Below the pieces are notes generated by a model. The model saw only the letters and a program-made list of their open reading frames with translations. It ran no database searches and had not been told where the DNA came from. Source: Planctomycetaceae bacterium TMED10 (GTDB taxonomy: Bacteria > Planctomycetota > Planctomycetia > Pirellulales > UBA7805). Taken from it: DNA of 10,913 nucleotides. This document shows, one piece after another, positions 2 to 6,256 of this stretch. The DNA is taken from NCBI GenBank assembly GCA_002168195.1, contig NHBP01000001.1, forward strand, positions 1 to 10,913, read 5' to 3'. The position numbers and the translations under genes are program-made. Numbering within the stretch: position 1 is the first letter of the stretch; the number at the start of each line of letters is the position of its first letter.

Positions 2-307
2 CTATGGGAACAAAAATCTCCCGAAGGCTACTTAGCTATATGTGGTATATTACAAAAATATATAGACCAAGGAATCTCTGTTAATACTTCTTATAATCCC
101 GAACACTATGAGGATAATAAGATACCAATGTCAGCAATGATACAAGATACTGTCACTGCATACAAATATGGTTTAAAACAATTGTACTATTTCAATACGT
201 TTGATGGAGCTGGAGAAATGACAGACGGAGAAACATATCACGCGTATGACGGAGAATCAGAAACTTATAATGTAGATGATGAGGACTGTGATTCGTGCAA
301 GATTTAA
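2..307 (+). CDS. nrdA: Ribonucleotide reductase class Ia large subunit, C-terminal end (partial)
   Basis: This is the last 101 codons of the alpha subunit, which reduces ribonucleoside diphosphates to deoxyribonucleotides; the 5' part lies outside the window. Visible family marks are the stretch PMSAMIQDTVTAYKYGLKQ, the LYYFNTFDGA segment (compare LYYxNTRDGA in E. coli NrdA), and an acidic flexible tail ending DCDSCKI. The two tail cysteines (CxxC spacing) are the pair that shuttles electrons from glutaredoxin or thioredoxin to the active site. NrdB follows after one small gene and glutaredoxin lies further down the same operon, so the full pathway is clustered. The next gene starts inside the tail at 295. 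Identification is firm; only the 5' truncation limits it. Confidence 0.95.
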   Translation, partial: LWEQKSPEGYLAICGILQKYIDQGISVNTSYNPEHYEDNKIPMSAMIQDTVTAYKYGLKQLYYFNTFDGAGEMTDGETYHAYDGESETYNVDDEDCDSCKI

Positions 308-528
308 AAAGTAAGATAAATAAAAGAATGGATATTCTTCAGACTTGGATGGAAGAAGATTATCACATGAAAAGACCACAAGTAGTTTATGACCATACAC
401 TTACAATAAGTAAATTTTGGTCAGTACTTTCAGAAGAAGACAGAGAATATATACAATGCGCTCAAGATGCAATAACAGAAAAATCAACAATATCATGGAA
501 ACATAATGCCAATACTACAGAAAAATAA
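295..528 (+). CDS. Small hypothetical protein between nrdA and nrdB
   Basis: A 77-residue protein of unrecognised function. It starts at a GTG inside the last codons of nrdA (13-base overlap), with GAGG at 281-284 as a ribosome binding site 10 bases upstream, and ends 23 bases inside nrdB. It is mostly charged and helical, with two Trp (TWMEEDY, KFWSVLSEEDREY), and has no signal peptide, membrane segment or cysteine pair. A shorter form could start at the ATG at 328. Overlap with genes on both sides suggests translational coupling inside the reductase operon, so a role linked to ribonucleotide reductase is possible, but this rests only on position. Confidence 0.6.
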   Translation: MQDLKSKINKRMDILQTWMEEDYHMKRPQVVYDHTLTISKFWSVLSEEDREYIQCAQDAITEKSTISWKHNANTTEK

Positions 529-1579
529 AAAATCCCATTTAGAAAAAAACATGTTTTTAGACGAGCCAGTTGACGTTGCTCGTTATGACCAACTTAAATA
601 TCCACAAATAGATAAAATCACTGAAAAACAACTAGGATTCTTTTGGAGACCAGAAGAAGTAGATGTATCAAAAGACAAAAAAGACTTTGGAGAATTAACT
701 GACCATGAACAACATATATTCACGTCTAATCTCAAAAGGCAAATACTTCTGGACTCTGTACAAGGTAGGGCCCCGAACCTTGCTTTCCTTCCTATTGCTT
801 CGTTACCCGAAATTGAGAACTGGGTCGAAACCTGGTCCTTTTTTGAAACTATCCATAGTCGTTCTTATACTCATATTATTAGGAACGTTTATGCAAACCC
901 TTCAATAGTATTTGATTCTATGCTTGATGTAAAAGAAATTATGGATTGTGGTTCTGATATCGCAAGATATTATGACGATTTAATAACAGATAATAATTCA
1001 GCTACTAATAAAATACAACATAAAACATCATTATATATGGCAATGCTTTCGGCGAATGCTCTAGAAGGAATACGTTTTTATGTATCCTTCGCCTGCAGTT
1101 GGGCATTCGCTGAGCTTAAGAAGATGGAAGGCAACGCTAAAATTATTAAGTTTATTGCAAGAGATGAAAATACTCATCTTGCAGCAACTACAGTTATGAT
1201 TAAAAACTTAATAAAAGAAGATAAAGATTTCGAAAAGATAGCGAAAAAGAATGAAGAACAAGCTATTAAATTATTTGTAGATGTTATTGAACAAGAAAAA
1301 GCATGGGCAAGATACTTATTTAAAGATGGCTCAATGATTGGTTTAAATGAAACAATATTAGAAAATTACGTAGAATGGATAGGATGTAAAAGAATGAGAG
1401 CAATAGGTTTACCTTGTCCATACACAGTTCCTCAGATGAATCCACTGCCTTGGACGGAAAAGTGGATATCTGGAGGAAACGTACAAGTCGCTCCACAAGA
1501 AACAGAAATAACTTCGTATATAACTGGTGGAGTTAAACAAGACGTTGATGATTCAACATTAAAAGGATTAAGCTTATGA
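506..1579 (+). CDS. nrdB: Ribonucleotide reductase class Ia small subunit
   Basis: A 357-residue beta subunit that holds the diiron-tyrosyl radical cofactor and passes the radical to NrdA. The N-terminal block PVDVARYDQLKYPQIDK and KQLGFFWRPEEVDVSKD match E. coli and T4 NrdB closely. Predicted metal ligands are Asp83 (LLDS), Glu114 and His117 (ETIH), Glu187 (ALEGIRF), Glu221 and His224 (RDENTH). The radical Tyr is Tyr121 in HSRSYTHIIRN. The C-terminal tail (TSYITGGVKQ to LKGLSL) is the NrdA-docking end. The start at 506 gives the same length ahead of MFLDEP as in T4 and E. coli; a weak GGAA lies upstream. It ends in an ATGA overlap with the cytochrome gene. Parts of the gene (about 740-900 and 1081-1140) are clearly richer in GC than the rest. 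Confidence 0.97.
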   Translation: MPILQKNKKSHLEKNMFLDEPVDVARYDQLKYPQIDKITEKQLGFFWRPEEVDVSKDKKDFGELTDHEQHIFTSNLKRQILLDSVQGRAPNLAFLPIASLPEIENWVETWSFFETIHSRSYTHIIRNVYANPSIVFDSMLDVKEIMDCGSDIARYYDDLITDNNSATNKIQHKTSLYMAMLSANALEGIRFYVSFACSWAFAELKKMEGNAKIIKFIARDENTHLAATTVMIKNLIKEDKDFEKIAKKNEEQAIKLFVDVIEQEKAWARYLFKDGSMIGLNETILENYVEWIGCKRMRAIGLPCPYTVPQMNPLPWTEKWISGGNVQVAPQETEITSYITGGVKQDVDDSTLKGLSL

Positions 1580-2013
1580 AAGAATTAGGAATGACATTAT
1601 TAGGATGTTTTGCAATAGGATTATTTTTTGCAATGAAAGTATATCCAAATCTAGAATACTCCGGAGTTGGTGGAGGACATTCTTGTACAGGAGAATGTTA
1701 TGAGGAATATGTAAGAGTAAATGGAACATCAGTTGATATATTAAAAGCAAAACAAGCTCTTGCTGCAATGGATGAATTTAGTGCAATCAAACCTTTATGG
1801 GCAGGTTGTGCAGCATGTCATGGTCAACAAGGCGAAGGTATGGCAGTATTTCCAAAACTAGCAGGTCAATCAGCTGATTATATAGTTGACAGACTTAATA
1901 CATATAAGAATAGAGGAGAAGTTGGTCCTATGAGTTCTACTATGTGGGGTCAAGCAGGTATGTTATCAAGTGCAGACATGGAAATGTTAGGTAAATATAT
2001 TGAGACATTATAA
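1576..2013 (+). CDS. Membrane-anchored class I c-type cytochrome
   Basis: A 145-residue monohaem cytochrome c. Residues about 5-20 form a hydrophobic segment without a clear cleavage site, so it is probably anchored in the inner membrane with the haem domain in the periplasm. The haem attachment site is CAACH at 78-82 (His82 proximal ligand). Met123, seven residues before LSSAD, has the spacing expected of the distal ligand in c553/c4-like domains; Met119 is an alternative. PKLAGQSADYIVDRL and the ending DMEMLGKYIETL are typical of the fold. Two extra cysteines, Cys37 and Cys41, lie between anchor and haem domain. AAGGA at 1563-1567 is a good ribosome binding site and the ATGA overlap with nrdB indicates coupling. 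It probably carries electrons to or from a respiratory complex; partner unknown. Host origin is likely. Confidence 0.9.
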   Translation: MKELGMTLLGCFAIGLFFAMKVYPNLEYSGVGGGHSCTGECYEEYVRVNGTSVDILKAKQALAAMDEFSAIKPLWAGCAACHGQQGEGMAVFPKLAGQSADYIVDRLNTYKNRGEVGPMSSTMWGQAGMLSSADMEMLGKYIETL

Positions 2014-2219
2014 TGTTTATACCTTGGTTCACAAAACCCGAAACGGAAAAGAAAATATTACAAGCAGCTAATCTTGCACCAAGCGAAGATATGCTGGAAA
2101 AAATTGTAGAAGTACACCCTATGAAACAAATAGCAATTATGTCAGTAGTTCAAGTATTAGTATTTGGATTTATGTTGCTTAGTTTCTGGATAATAAATTT
2201 ATATATAGAAGGATTATAA
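2013..2219 (+). CDS. Small single-helix membrane protein beside cytochrome c
   Basis: A 68-residue protein of unrecognised family. The first 35 residues are polar (MFIPWFTKPETEKK, then a helical acidic and basic stretch) and residues about 37-60 (IAIMSVVQVLVFGFMLLSFWII) form one transmembrane helix near the C-terminus. There are no cysteines or haem motifs. The start codon shares one base with the stop of the cytochrome gene (TAATG), so the two are very likely made together. The polar N-terminus carries more charges than the short C-terminal tail, and which side it faces is unclear. It may be a membrane partner or assembly factor for the cytochrome, or a small subunit that docks on an oxidase. 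That role is inferred from gene order only. Confidence 0.75.
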   Translation: MFIPWFTKPETEKKILQAANLAPSEDMLEKIVEVHPMKQIAIMSVVQVLVFGFMLLSFWIINLYIEGL

Positions 2220-2220
2220 T

Positions 2221-2484
2221 ATGATAATAGAAATTTACGGTAAAGATAATTGCCCGTACTGCGATATGGCAGTAAATATATCACAACAATTCATACAAGA
2301 AAGCGAACACAAGTATGAATACTTTAAATTAGACAGAGATTTTACAAGAGAACAGCTCTTTGAAAAATTTCCAGGAGCAAGAACTTTTCCACAAGTCACT
2401 ATAGATGGTCATGCAATCGGTGGTTATACTGAATTGAAAGAACATATTGAAGGAACACGGTCTGTGGAGTTCTTAACAGAATGA
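2221..2484 (+). CDS. Glutaredoxin
   Basis: An 87-residue dithiol glutaredoxin. The CPYC active site is at residues 11-14, the cis-proline is in TFPQV (around residues 56-60) and the glutathione-binding loop is GGYTEL (67-72). The length equals that of bacterial Grx1/Grx3 and T4 NrdC-type proteins. It would re-reduce the C-terminal cysteine pair of NrdA, using host glutathione and glutathione reductase. GAAGGA at 2208-2213 is a good ribosome binding site. The gene lies in the same run as nrdA and nrdB, which supports this role, and ends in an ATGA overlap with the zinc-ribbon gene. It could also serve the cytochrome, but nothing in the sequence shows this. Confidence 0.95.
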   Translation: MIIEIYGKDNCPYCDMAVNISQQFIQESEHKYEYFKLDRDFTREQLFEKFPGARTFPQVTIDGHAIGGYTELKEHIEGTRSVEFLTE

Positions 2485-2609
2485 TTCTAGAATGCGAATA
2501 TTGTTATTCACGTATAGTCATTAAACCAGATGAACCTATTAAAATAAATTTTTGTCCTCATTGTGGTGAACCCACAGATGATTCAGACGAATTAGACTTT
2601 AATGAATAA
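2481..2609 (+). CDS. 42-aa zinc-ribbon protein
   Basis: A short gene that starts in an ATGA overlap with glutaredoxin, has GGAG at 2466-2469 upstream, and ends 8 bases inside the GIY-YIG gene. The product has two CxxC knuckles, CEYC at residues 5-8 and CPHCG at 25-29, separated by 16 residues, and then an acidic tail. This is the pattern of a single zinc ribbon. Such mini-proteins in phages may bind nucleic acid or host proteins such as RNA polymerase, but the sequence does not indicate which. Its size is below the cut-off of many gene callers. The paired cysteines and tight overlaps on both sides argue that it is real. Confidence 0.72.
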   Translation: MILECEYCYSRIVIKPDEPIKINFCPHCGEPTDDSDELDFNE

Positions 2610-3039
2610 TTGGATATATCAAGGACTAAAGTTTGAGCCTGATGAACCTTTTACATTCGAAAGATATGGAAAGGATTGGTATGGATTCGTATATTGTATA
2701 ACTAATCGAGCTACAAACAAAAAATATATAGGCAAGAAATTCTTTTGGAAGCCTAAAACATTACCTATAACTAAGAAAAGAAAAAGACGTCAAAGACTTA
2801 AAGTCGAATCTGATTGGCGTACATATTATGGTTCCAATAAACACTTACAAGAAGATGTACTAGAGATGGGAGAAGATTTTTTTTATAGAGAAATAATCTA
2901 CCTATGTAAAACTAAAGGTGAGTGCGCGTATTATGAAGCAAAAGAACAATTTGACAAAGAAGTTTTATTAAGTGAAAATTACTATAATGGTATAATCAAT
3001 TGCAGAATTGGTGGAAATGCAGTAAAAAACTTAAAATAA
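2602..3039 (+). CDS. GIY-YIG family nuclease (Seg-like or phage-specific)
   Basis: A 145-residue protein with a GIY-YIG nuclease core. Residues 29-31 (FVY, in GFVYCITN) stand for GIY and 42-44 are YIG in KKYIGKKFFW. A very basic stretch follows (KKRKRRQRLK, 58-67), then the conserved-looking DWRTYYGSNKHLQ, with Arg73 in the catalytic Arg position. The catalytic Glu is probably Glu112 in AYYEAKEQF, and ENYYNG (125-130) holds the late Asn. The family cuts DNA with one metal ion; in T4-like phages it includes free-standing homing enzymes and resident nucleases. No DNA-binding repeat is attached, and it is shorter than T4 Seg enzymes, so a resident repair or host-DNA nuclease is as likely as a homing enzyme. 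No strong Shine-Dalgarno; it is probably coupled to the gene before it. Confidence 0.75.
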   Translation: MNNWIYQGLKFEPDEPFTFERYGKDWYGFVYCITNRATNKKYIGKKFFWKPKTLPITKKRKRRQRLKVESDWRTYYGSNKHLQEDVLEMGEDFFYREIIYLCKTKGECAYYEAKEQFDKEVLLSENYYNGIINCRIGGNAVKNLK

Positions 3040-3042
3040 ACG

Positions 3043-3071
3043 TTTACATTTGCTCAAAAGTATGGTATAAT
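3043..3071 (+). promoter_or_regulatory. Sigma70-type promoter, copy 1, predicted near-leaderless
   Basis: TTTACA at 3043-3048, a 17-base spacer, and TATAAT at 3066-3071 preceded by TGG (extended -10). The predicted start is near 3078, two bases before the ATG at 3080, so the mRNA should have almost no leader. It lies in the short gap after the GIY-YIG gene and shares TTTACATTT-like and TGGTATAATATA blocks with the copies at 4807 and 7478. It should be read by unmodified host RNA polymerase early in infection. Confidence 0.85.
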
Positions 3072-3079
3072 ATAGGTAT

Positions 3080-3541
3080 ATGACTAAAAAATATAAAGAT
3101 AATGTTATTCAATTTCCAACGAAAAAAGAATTAACGCAAAAAGAAGAATCAGAAATCCTAGACGAATTAAGTAATGAATGTGTAGAATCATCTCATATAC
3201 TTATGGAAGTCATGGAAGAGTTTATTAATACTGGTCAAGTAACTGAAGGGTTAATGGATTTAAATTTCAGAGATGAAACAGTCCAAGAATCTAGAGATAT
3301 GTTTGTTATAGTAAATTTATTAAATGCAATGTTTAATCGTTATTATGGTATACCTCATGGTCTACATCAAACACTTGATAATGCTTATATAAAAGTAAAA
3401 GAAATGATTCTTATTAATGAAGAAGCAAATCATGATTTGGCTGATTTTGTATTCACACCAGAAGGTAGTGACCAAGAAATTCTCTTTACTCCTGATTTTG
3501 ATTTAGACCCACCGGAAGAGGACCCAGATGATACTAATTGA
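3080..3541 (+). CDS. Acidic hypothetical phage protein upstream of RNase H
   Basis: A 153-residue protein I do not recognise. It begins with a short basic segment and VIQFPTKKE, has a predicted helical core (DELSNECVESSHILMEVMEE, and RDMFVIVNLLNAMFNRYYG at about 91-109) and ends in a strongly acidic tail (DFDLDPPEEDPDDTN). No membrane segment or catalytic motif is visible. The start at 3080 is fixed by the promoter directly before it, and there is no good Shine-Dalgarno. It overlaps the RNase H gene by 14 bases. The acidic tail could mimic DNA or contact a basic protein. In T4 the corresponding area holds transcription and replication accessory genes, but I see no match to gp33, gp59 or DsbA. 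Confidence 0.75.
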   Translation: MTKKYKDNVIQFPTKKELTQKEESEILDELSNECVESSHILMEVMEEFINTGQVTEGLMDLNFRDETVQESRDMFVIVNLLNAMFNRYYGIPHGLHQTLDNAYIKVKEMILINEEANHDLADFVFTPEGSDQEILFTPDFDLDPPEEDPDDTN

Positions 3542-5391: not shown

Positions 5392-6256
5392 ATTTCACGA
5401 TTATAAATTTGAAAAAATCGCTAATAAGTATTACGATACAATTCGTAGTGCTATGAATAATTTAGGTCATGAAGAATCTAATGAAACAGTTGATATAAAT
5501 TTTTATAATCATATAGTTAATTCTTCCGCGTGTAACCGGCCGGTGATTATAGTTAAACCCACAGCTCCCACGAGTCGTCACTTTGCCCTAGATACTATGG
5601 GATACGCGAATTCGAGTGCACTCTCGTACACAAGGCCAGATATAAACGATGATATAGAACAGATGGATTGGGAAAGTATATTGCAATTAAAAAATACTAA
5701 GCCAAACAAATGGGATGATTCAGTATTACTTAAATGGAGAGATGCTAAAGATATAAAAGATGACCATATACTAATTATAGGTCAAATGCCAGATGACGAA
5801 ACAGTAAATGGATTTGGCTTTGGTGACCATATTAAAAGAATGGATATGATTATAAATAAATTAGAGAATGAAAACCTAGTTATTAAATTACATCCAAGAT
5901 ATAAAAATAAAACACTTGTAAAAAAATGGAAAGATGCTGGTCATCATGTTATAACAGGCTTTGATTGTATACATAGTATATTACCAAAAACAAGAGTAGC
6001 AATTGTAGACAACTCAACAGCTGGTATAGAATGTCTTATGCATGAAGTACCAATTATATCTCATGGCTGGCCAGAATATCATTGGGCTACTCAAAAGTTG
6101 CAAACATTGCCACAACTAGAAAACTTGGTAAATGATTTGTCATGGTATAGACCAGTATATGCAAAACAATTTATTGAATGGTATATAAATCATTACTTAT
6201 GTCATGATATAAAAACAACTGAAAGAAGATTAAAGGAGATATTAAATGCCAACTGA
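5381..6256 (+). CDS. KpsS/KpsC-like capsule polysaccharide glycosyltransferase
   Basis: A 291-residue protein with marks of the capsule polysaccharide synthesis family (PF05159, beta-Kdo transferase type). ILIIGQMPDDETVNG (130-144) resembles the family's GQxxDD block, VIKLHPRYKNK (167-177) the KpHP block, and VDNSTAGIECLMHEVPIISHG (about 209-229) the S-S/T-aGxEAL-xxxPV-xxG donor-site loop. PEYHWA follows where bacterial enzymes have Y-xxWG. The N-terminal 120 residues are less typical. The ATG at 5381 overlaps the end of the previous gene by 11 bases and replaces a longer open frame from 5255 that would lie wholly over that gene. Residues about 47-87 are coded by a GC-rich patch (62 of 120 bases). 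The acceptor is unknown: host surface glycan, virion protein or modified DNA are all possible. Confidence 0.7.
   Translation: MLYKFHDYKFEKIANKYYDTIRSAMNNLGHEESNETVDINFYNHIVNSSACNRPVIIVKPTAPTSRHFALDTMGYANSSALSYTRPDINDDIEQMDWESILQLKNTKPNKWDDSVLLKWRDAKDIKDDHILIIGQMPDDETVNGFGFGDHIKRMDMIINKLENENLVIKLHPRYKNKTLVKKWKDAGHHVITGFDCIHSILPKTRVAIVDNSTAGIECLMHEVPIISHGWPEYHWATQKLQTLPQLENLVNDLSWYRPVYAKQFIEWYINHYLCHDIKTTERRLKEILNAN

Follow-up and report, generated by a model that had tools for sequence, protein, structure and literature searches.

Why a phage ribonucleotide reductase (RNR) operon should carry genes for a cytochrome c and a one-helix membrane protein is the question raised by the locus described here. 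In the window, by which we mean the entire 10,913-nucleotide stretch of DNA that was analysed, these two genes (cytc and p68) lie between nrdB and the glutaredoxin gene grx (Table 1). ORF and Pfam analysis bore out exactly the gene order given in the first-pass annotation, together with its overlaps of 4 bases (nrdB/cytc) and 1 base (cytc/p68); p68 and grx are separated by a gap of 1 base, and the Ribonuc_red_sm and Glutaredoxin matches of the window ORFs score over the Pfam cut-off. Electron carriers encoded by viruses have been described chiefly in phages of photosynthetic hosts. We propose, with a probability of roughly 0.55, that the cytochrome would be a periplasmic class I protein delivering electrons to a terminal oxidase of the host, and that the p68-family protein would put it in place.

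Table 1. Genes at the start of the window, with positions in the window.
Feature	Position	Strand	Basis or remark
nrdA C-terminal end, open at window start	2..307	+	ORF call, Pfam
77-aa ORF, between nrdA and nrdB	295..528	+	kept in some close relatives
nrdB, class I ribonucleotide reductase small subunit	506..1579	+	ORF call, Pfam
cytc, exported monohaem cytochrome c, 145 aa	1576..2013	+	ORF, Pfam, alignment
p68, 68-aa protein with one membrane helix	2013..2219	+	ORF, alignment, hydrophobicity
grx, glutaredoxin	2221..2484	+	ORF call, Pfam
small zinc-ribbon-like protein	2481..2609	+	sub-threshold matches only
SegE-type GIY-YIG endonuclease	2602..3039	+	family match

The GC content of the window is 32%, as against 53-55% in two 15-kb stretches of the metagenome-assembled genome (MAG) to which it was assigned, and the contig, that of a T4-like phage, was probably wrongly binned there. 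Outside the window's contig, this MAG contains 20 further Cytochrom_C matches. In the cultured set, the best matches to the RNase H of the window, at 44-45% identity, are the enzymes of HTVC008M, Melnitz and some cyanophages; for its NrdB, the nearest (60%) come from large phages infecting Erwinia, Xanthomonas and Pectobacterium. The T4 gp23 capsid family was found on four of the seven long related records tested, two of these four also carrying cytc. When the capsids of three of the four were compared with cultured phages, Melnitz ranked first and HTVC008M second each time, at 62-69%. These capsid relatives, namely Melnitz (an OM43 phage) and HTVC008M and Mosig (SAR11 phages), indicate the phage type only and not the host.

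The earlier description of a monohaem cytochrome with an N-terminal anchor agrees with the layout of the window protein: its 145 residues comprise a hydrophobic N-terminus (about residues 5-21), a CxxxC pair (37-41), a single CAACH haem motif (78-82) and a likely axial Met (Met123), and it scores 34.6 bits with Pfam Cytochrom_C (PF00034), whose cut-off is 21.3. Further comparison used 85 distinct full-length cytochromes, obtained from 217 ORFs after identical copies were merged and partial ones left out. All 85 have CxxCH, a hydrophobic N-terminal segment with no second such segment in any, and the likely axial Met123, which aligns with a Met of the c554 chain 2zzs; the pattern with Met119 fails in three of the 85, where Gln is present. 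A conserved axial Met is usual in electron carriers. The N-termini are of at least three kinds, mostly M[KR]ELG followed by the anchor, others being MNDIAG- or MSDIAG-like, and a few cytochromes, such as that of L329, resemble by eye proteins with cleavable signal peptides. Since these differing N-termini precede the same domain, they suggest one exported domain behind various export signals. The dN/dS ratio has a median of 0.26 and a maximum of 0.58 (433 non-independent pairs with dS of 0.05-1 and at least four synonymous changes), and this purifying selection, together with the viral hallmark gp23 on two cytc records, supports the earlier suggestion that cytc would be an auxiliary metabolic gene. 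The AF2 model of the window protein is poor (mean pLDDT 62.8). As judged from its sequence, cytc encodes a phage-borne, exported monohaem cytochrome with a class I haem domain.

Among solved structures, the cytc profile matches cytochromes c552, c554 and c4 at E values of 4.5e-19, 1.2e-17 and 1.9e-17, the matched stretches beginning at cytc residues 68-77. Like these proteins (PDB 1h1o, 2zzs, 1etp and 6q2u), cytc has a haem domain, starting at about residue 75, and has in common with them CxxCH, the pattern FPxLxGQ..YI...L..YKN, the axial Met and an LSDxDI tail. The sequence of 6q2u, a c4, is also present in two further PDB entries, 8smr and 8snh, alongside cbb3 oxidase subunits. However, 1h1o and c4 each show two matched stretches, whereas the phage cytochrome has one haem motif and does not have the two haem domains of cytochrome c4 proper. 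Unlike the c4/c552/c554 proteins, moreover, it mostly has a non-cleaved anchor, has about 50 residues with a CxxxC pair ahead of the haem domain, and is phage-borne and accompanied by a small partner. CcoP, subunit III of the cbb3 oxidase, resembles cytc in being a membrane-anchored c-type haem domain, with a weak profile match, but the scores for cytc (15.7 bits against 179.95 for TIGR00782, and 20.2 against 27 for PF13442), its single haem motif and the absence of COX1 from 13 phage records all set the two apart.

The family is large. In the protein database, 2172 matches to cytc were obtained at E <=1e-3 and 2082 matches to p68 (the best 120 being listed in each case). In IMG/VR, stretches encoding cytc relatives numbered 148 in a single-sequence scan and 489 in a profile scan, and two p68 scans gave at least 453 and at least 457 confirmed stretches; the best 80 stretches of each scan were kept. 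The recurrence between nrdB and grx that the first-pass annotation had proposed looking for was found in the IMG/VR contig L001, which has the gene order of the window and cytc, p68 and grx 100% identical to it. Its fear that the pair might be present in one contig only proved groundless because the database entry identical to the window cytochrome (P0001) represents 60 contigs, and an assembly join at the window junctions appears very unlikely. Among nine further loci with cytochromes 94-95% identical to that of the window (L002-L010), the 4-base nrdB-cytc overlap is kept in eight, and the spacing differs in L009.

Outside uncultured phages, no convincing member of the cytc family was found in PHROGs, cultured phages or the cellular genomes searched. 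The window cytc and p68 have no PHROG match, and 20 members of the p68 family gave PHROG matches no better than E 0.035 for one and 0.048 for another, to different families. No member was detected in cultured phages (50,697 records for the window pair) by tblastn of the window proteins, another cytochrome and one p94, which gave short matches only, at E 0.05 (42%, to cytc) and 0.3. Mosig, Melnitz-3 and P-HM2 have the same uvsW-gp55 backbone as cytc phages, and cytc profiles detected nothing at that site or in 22 kb of HTVC008M; p68/p94 profiles gave nothing better than E 0.35 in the same regions. When 84,980 species genomes were scanned by pattern, three relatives of cytc came up (L082-L084), each near nrdA, nrdB and grx as in the phage loci, and we therefore take them as misbinned phage contigs. 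A cellular origin of cytc was set aside on the grounds that only these phage-like loci were found in the scan, which divergent relatives could escape. Among 20 genomes around the MAG, only G013 matched besides the MAG itself (weakly, at 2.8e-8 and 1.1e-4, to the haem region in a 415-aa frame), which we take for a common cytochrome domain. The genome-by-genome search, confined to these genomes and the phylum of the MAG and likewise open to missing divergent relatives, gave no cytc at E 1e-10 in 293 other genomes of that phylum. No description of the family was found in the open-access literature searched, including passages of PMC3474794, PMC11480375, PMC4053976, PMC8190135 and PMC8115048. We regard these phage cytochromes as a large family that has not been catalogued and whose membrane partner recurs, phage electron-carrier genes as such being already known.

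In the partner, p68, one strong hydrophobic helix (about residues 40-60) with an invariant Gln and Met follows a conserved HPMKQ motif, and the orientation of the protein by positive-inside count is N-in in all 20 members of alignment A2. The related families p87 and p94 (about 63-95 aa) have this helix in common with it, and their profiles match that of p68 (hhalign 96.7%, E 3e-10). None of these families has a significant match in Pfam, NCBIfam or PDB profiles; relationships with ATP-synthase g, PufX or desaturases were considered and dropped, the matches being sub-threshold. Among 97 distinct p68/p87 loci with enough flank (24 more had too little), cytc lies within 2.5 kb in 46, in both gene orders (28 and 18), with an overlap of exactly 4 bases in 20 and of 1 base in 11, the two genes often being translationally coupled. 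Counted from cytc, p68/p87 occurs within 2.5 kb in 42 of the 72 loci with at least 1.2 kb of flank and is absent in 30. All seven cytc records longer than 100 kb in our set contain a member of the p68 superfamily: G028, G029, G332, G333, G334, G341 (153 kb) and the contig of L083 (121 kb) in the MAG G343. The weakest of these matches, at E 2.6e-5, comes from G333, where a 64-aa ORF containing one such helix lies between uvsW and gp55. When 16 long cytc records were searched together, a superfamily match was found in eight, and the eight without one are all fragments shorter than 80 kb. The MAG of L083 contains a second p68-superfamily match on a 142-kb contig (G343:C58:51391-51522, E 2.7e-14).

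The partner is not confined to the company of the cytochrome, and the strongest competing explanation starts from this fact: p68 might be an independent phage membrane protein, acting for example in superinfection exclusion or as a modulator of a host membrane complex, which cytc adjoins partly through a shared preference for sites and with no joint work between them. No cytc is found within 2.5 kb of 51 of the 97 p68/p87 loci, and p68 but not cytc was found in the 120-kb record G033, so that p68 also has a function apart from the cytochrome. In addition, the uvsW-gp55 site houses several other small ORFs that look membrane-like by eye, and in several cytc phages the partner is located at another site than the cytochrome. 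However, genes that overlap by 4 or 1 bases whichever comes first, and do so at several sites, speak against mere adjacency, as does a superfamily member in all seven cytc records above 100 kb, and p68 has no match to known defence proteins, in a library of defence systems rather than phage exclusion proteins. We regard this explanation as rather improbable. The dependence seems one-sided, in that cytc comes with the partner and the partner needs no cytc; the pair inferred in the first-pass annotation does recur, often with overlapping genes, but is less exclusive than was implied there.

A second alternative concerns the region ahead of the haem domain. The CxxxCY motif is present in 85 of 85 cytochromes, and none of the solved cytochromes that were matched has anything corresponding to the region before about residue 68, which includes this cysteine pair; an electron shuttle of the plain kind does not explain the invariant pair, which counts against our proposal. 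The cytochrome might thus serve in non-respiratory periplasmic redox chemistry, the cysteine pair and haem acting on thiols, peroxide or copper. The pair may, however, be a mere structural disulfide, no catalytic family was matched, and the axial Met is invariant, so we consider such a function unlikely. A CuA- or Sco-type copper site was rejected, there being no conserved His closely after the pair in the alignment.

The genomic settings bear on whether the pair serves RNR directly, by supplying electrons from respiration for the NrdB radical or for glutaredoxin. When settings were defined by a marker gene within 2.5 kb, with RNR given precedence, 55 of the 85 cytochromes lay near RNR genes, which, with the gene overlaps in the window, speaks for such a role; the others were at uvsW-gp55 (16), beside a NifU_N/IscU-type gene (4), beside an i-spanin-like gene (2) or elsewhere (8). 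RNR-adjacent copies occur in phages of two RNR types, with NrdB either 76-98% or 48-51% identical to that of the window. A tree of the 85 cytochromes, built from 147 columns and with many forks unresolved, requires a minimum of 6 context changes when the "other" class is omitted and of 11 when it is included, the mean after shuffling being 28.3 in the latter case. The non-RNR settings and repeated context changes argue against an RNR-specific task and for a general benefit, and on these grounds we ruled out the former as the main reading; the position of cytc in the RNR operon is probably a matter of co-expression with further genes of metabolism. Moreover, the haem is predicted to face the periplasm, whereas NrdB and Grx are cytoplasmic. 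Direct service to RNR is accordingly very improbable, and the idea that the respiratory chain is linked to what the operon requires in redox terms does not fit. Of the earlier view of a cytochrome and membrane protein within an RNR operon, the recurrence with a one-helix protein, often in that operon, has held, and a purpose tied to RNR is not supported, given the 30 copies elsewhere; its other option, electron flow to a terminal oxidase, fits the predicted periplasmic side of the haem. A bacterial contaminant, a join made in assembly or a passenger gene in decay, suggested by the binning of the window in a MAG of different GC, is already refuted in practice by the hundreds of viral contigs, the T4-like capsid gene on two cytc records, the purifying selection and the junctions kept on independent contigs.

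Our preferred reading, electron delivery to a host oxidase, draws on the motifs, the export segment, purifying selection, recurrence, overlap with the partner and the several settings; for haem loading, the partners, the direction of electron flow and the role of p68, we infer the following. The protein would be a phage-specific class I cytochrome c, similar in kind to c4, c552 and c554 and located in the periplasm, membrane-anchored in most phages and probably cleaved and soluble in a few, to which the host cytochrome c maturation machinery would presumably attach haem. It would take electrons from complex III of the host, or from a different donor, and pass them to a terminal oxidase, which would be that of the host since COX1 had no match in any of 13 phage records; a phage-coded oxidase was discarded for the same reason. 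In this way, proton-motive force and ATP might be upheld while phage takeover curtails the synthesis of host respiratory proteins. The p68 and p87/p94 proteins would form a family of small inner-membrane proteins with a cytoplasmic N-terminus, most likely binding the cytochrome anchor or a host respiratory complex and positioning the cytochrome there. Against an adaptor role stand the failure to match any oxidase or respiratory subunit family and the 30 of 72 cytochromes with no p68/p87 nearby.

We also entertain, tentatively, a more far-reaching possibility: that cytc and a dedicated small membrane adaptor make up a mobile respiratory module, spread over several sites in uncultured T4-like phages and rewiring the host oxidase during infection, in which one of the host's respiratory complexes would receive phage-made accessory subunits from the p68 family, and cytc, with its CxxxC domain, would be an optional donor. 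If so, the module would be the counterpart, outside photosynthesis, of the photosynthesis genes of cyanophages. T4-like cyanophages reportedly carry electron-transport genes such as those for plastocyanin and PTOX. Those genes belong to photosynthesis and to cultured phages, whereas the phage cytochrome is c-type and belongs to uncultured phages whose hosts are probably heterotrophic. According to PMC5082946, marine phages carry photosynthetic electron transport proteins that are presumed to sustain electron flow in infection. Sequences of cbb3 oxidase subunit I have been counted in marine viral fractions, as stated in PMC3474794; as presented there, that case is one of an oxidase subunit among viral-fraction sequences and differs from that of the phage cytochrome. 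Many uncultured T4-like phages have their own exported cytochrome c, which probably sustains respiration of the infected cell. Provided that the proteins are functional, it would become directly testable whether phages control the respiration of uncultured bacteria in aquatic habitats, and the p68 family would offer a new lead on how phages contact host membrane complexes.

Several minor observations accompany these results. In the NifU_N/IscU-type setting, cytc lies 3' of the scaffold gene, with a 4-base overlap in three of four cases; this phage Fe-S scaffold gene is found at L044:4915-5331 (Pfam E 3.2e-40) and in the relatives L026, L028 and L040. In another phage group (L017:6441-7320 and L077:6381-6978), cytc is followed by genes for a coiled-coil membrane protein and a lipoprotein-like protein, a pair that resembles i-spanin/o-spanin by eye, the first having no significant Pfam match. 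Small membrane-like ORFs flank the cytc-p68 pair on either side at the uvsW-gp55 site of L014 (5719-5898 and 6590-6745), and relatives of both recur among the loci. At L329:1686-2078 (record G340), a 130-aa protein, membrane-like by eye and with no Pfam match, lies between a p94-like protein and cytc and may be a third component at that locus. In the window itself, patches of nrdB (700-850, 1050-1150 and 1400-1500) have a GC content of 43-48% within the 32% GC contig, and are possibly recombined stretches or sites tied to the neighbouring GIY-YIG endonuclease. A Capsule_synth-like protein (PF05159, E 2.9e-6) is encoded at 5402-6253 in the phage gene run. Finally, a strong promoter-like site at 3043-3071 (11/12, with TG ahead of the second hexamer) lies just 5' of a 153-aa ORF at 3080, near which a new transcription unit may start.
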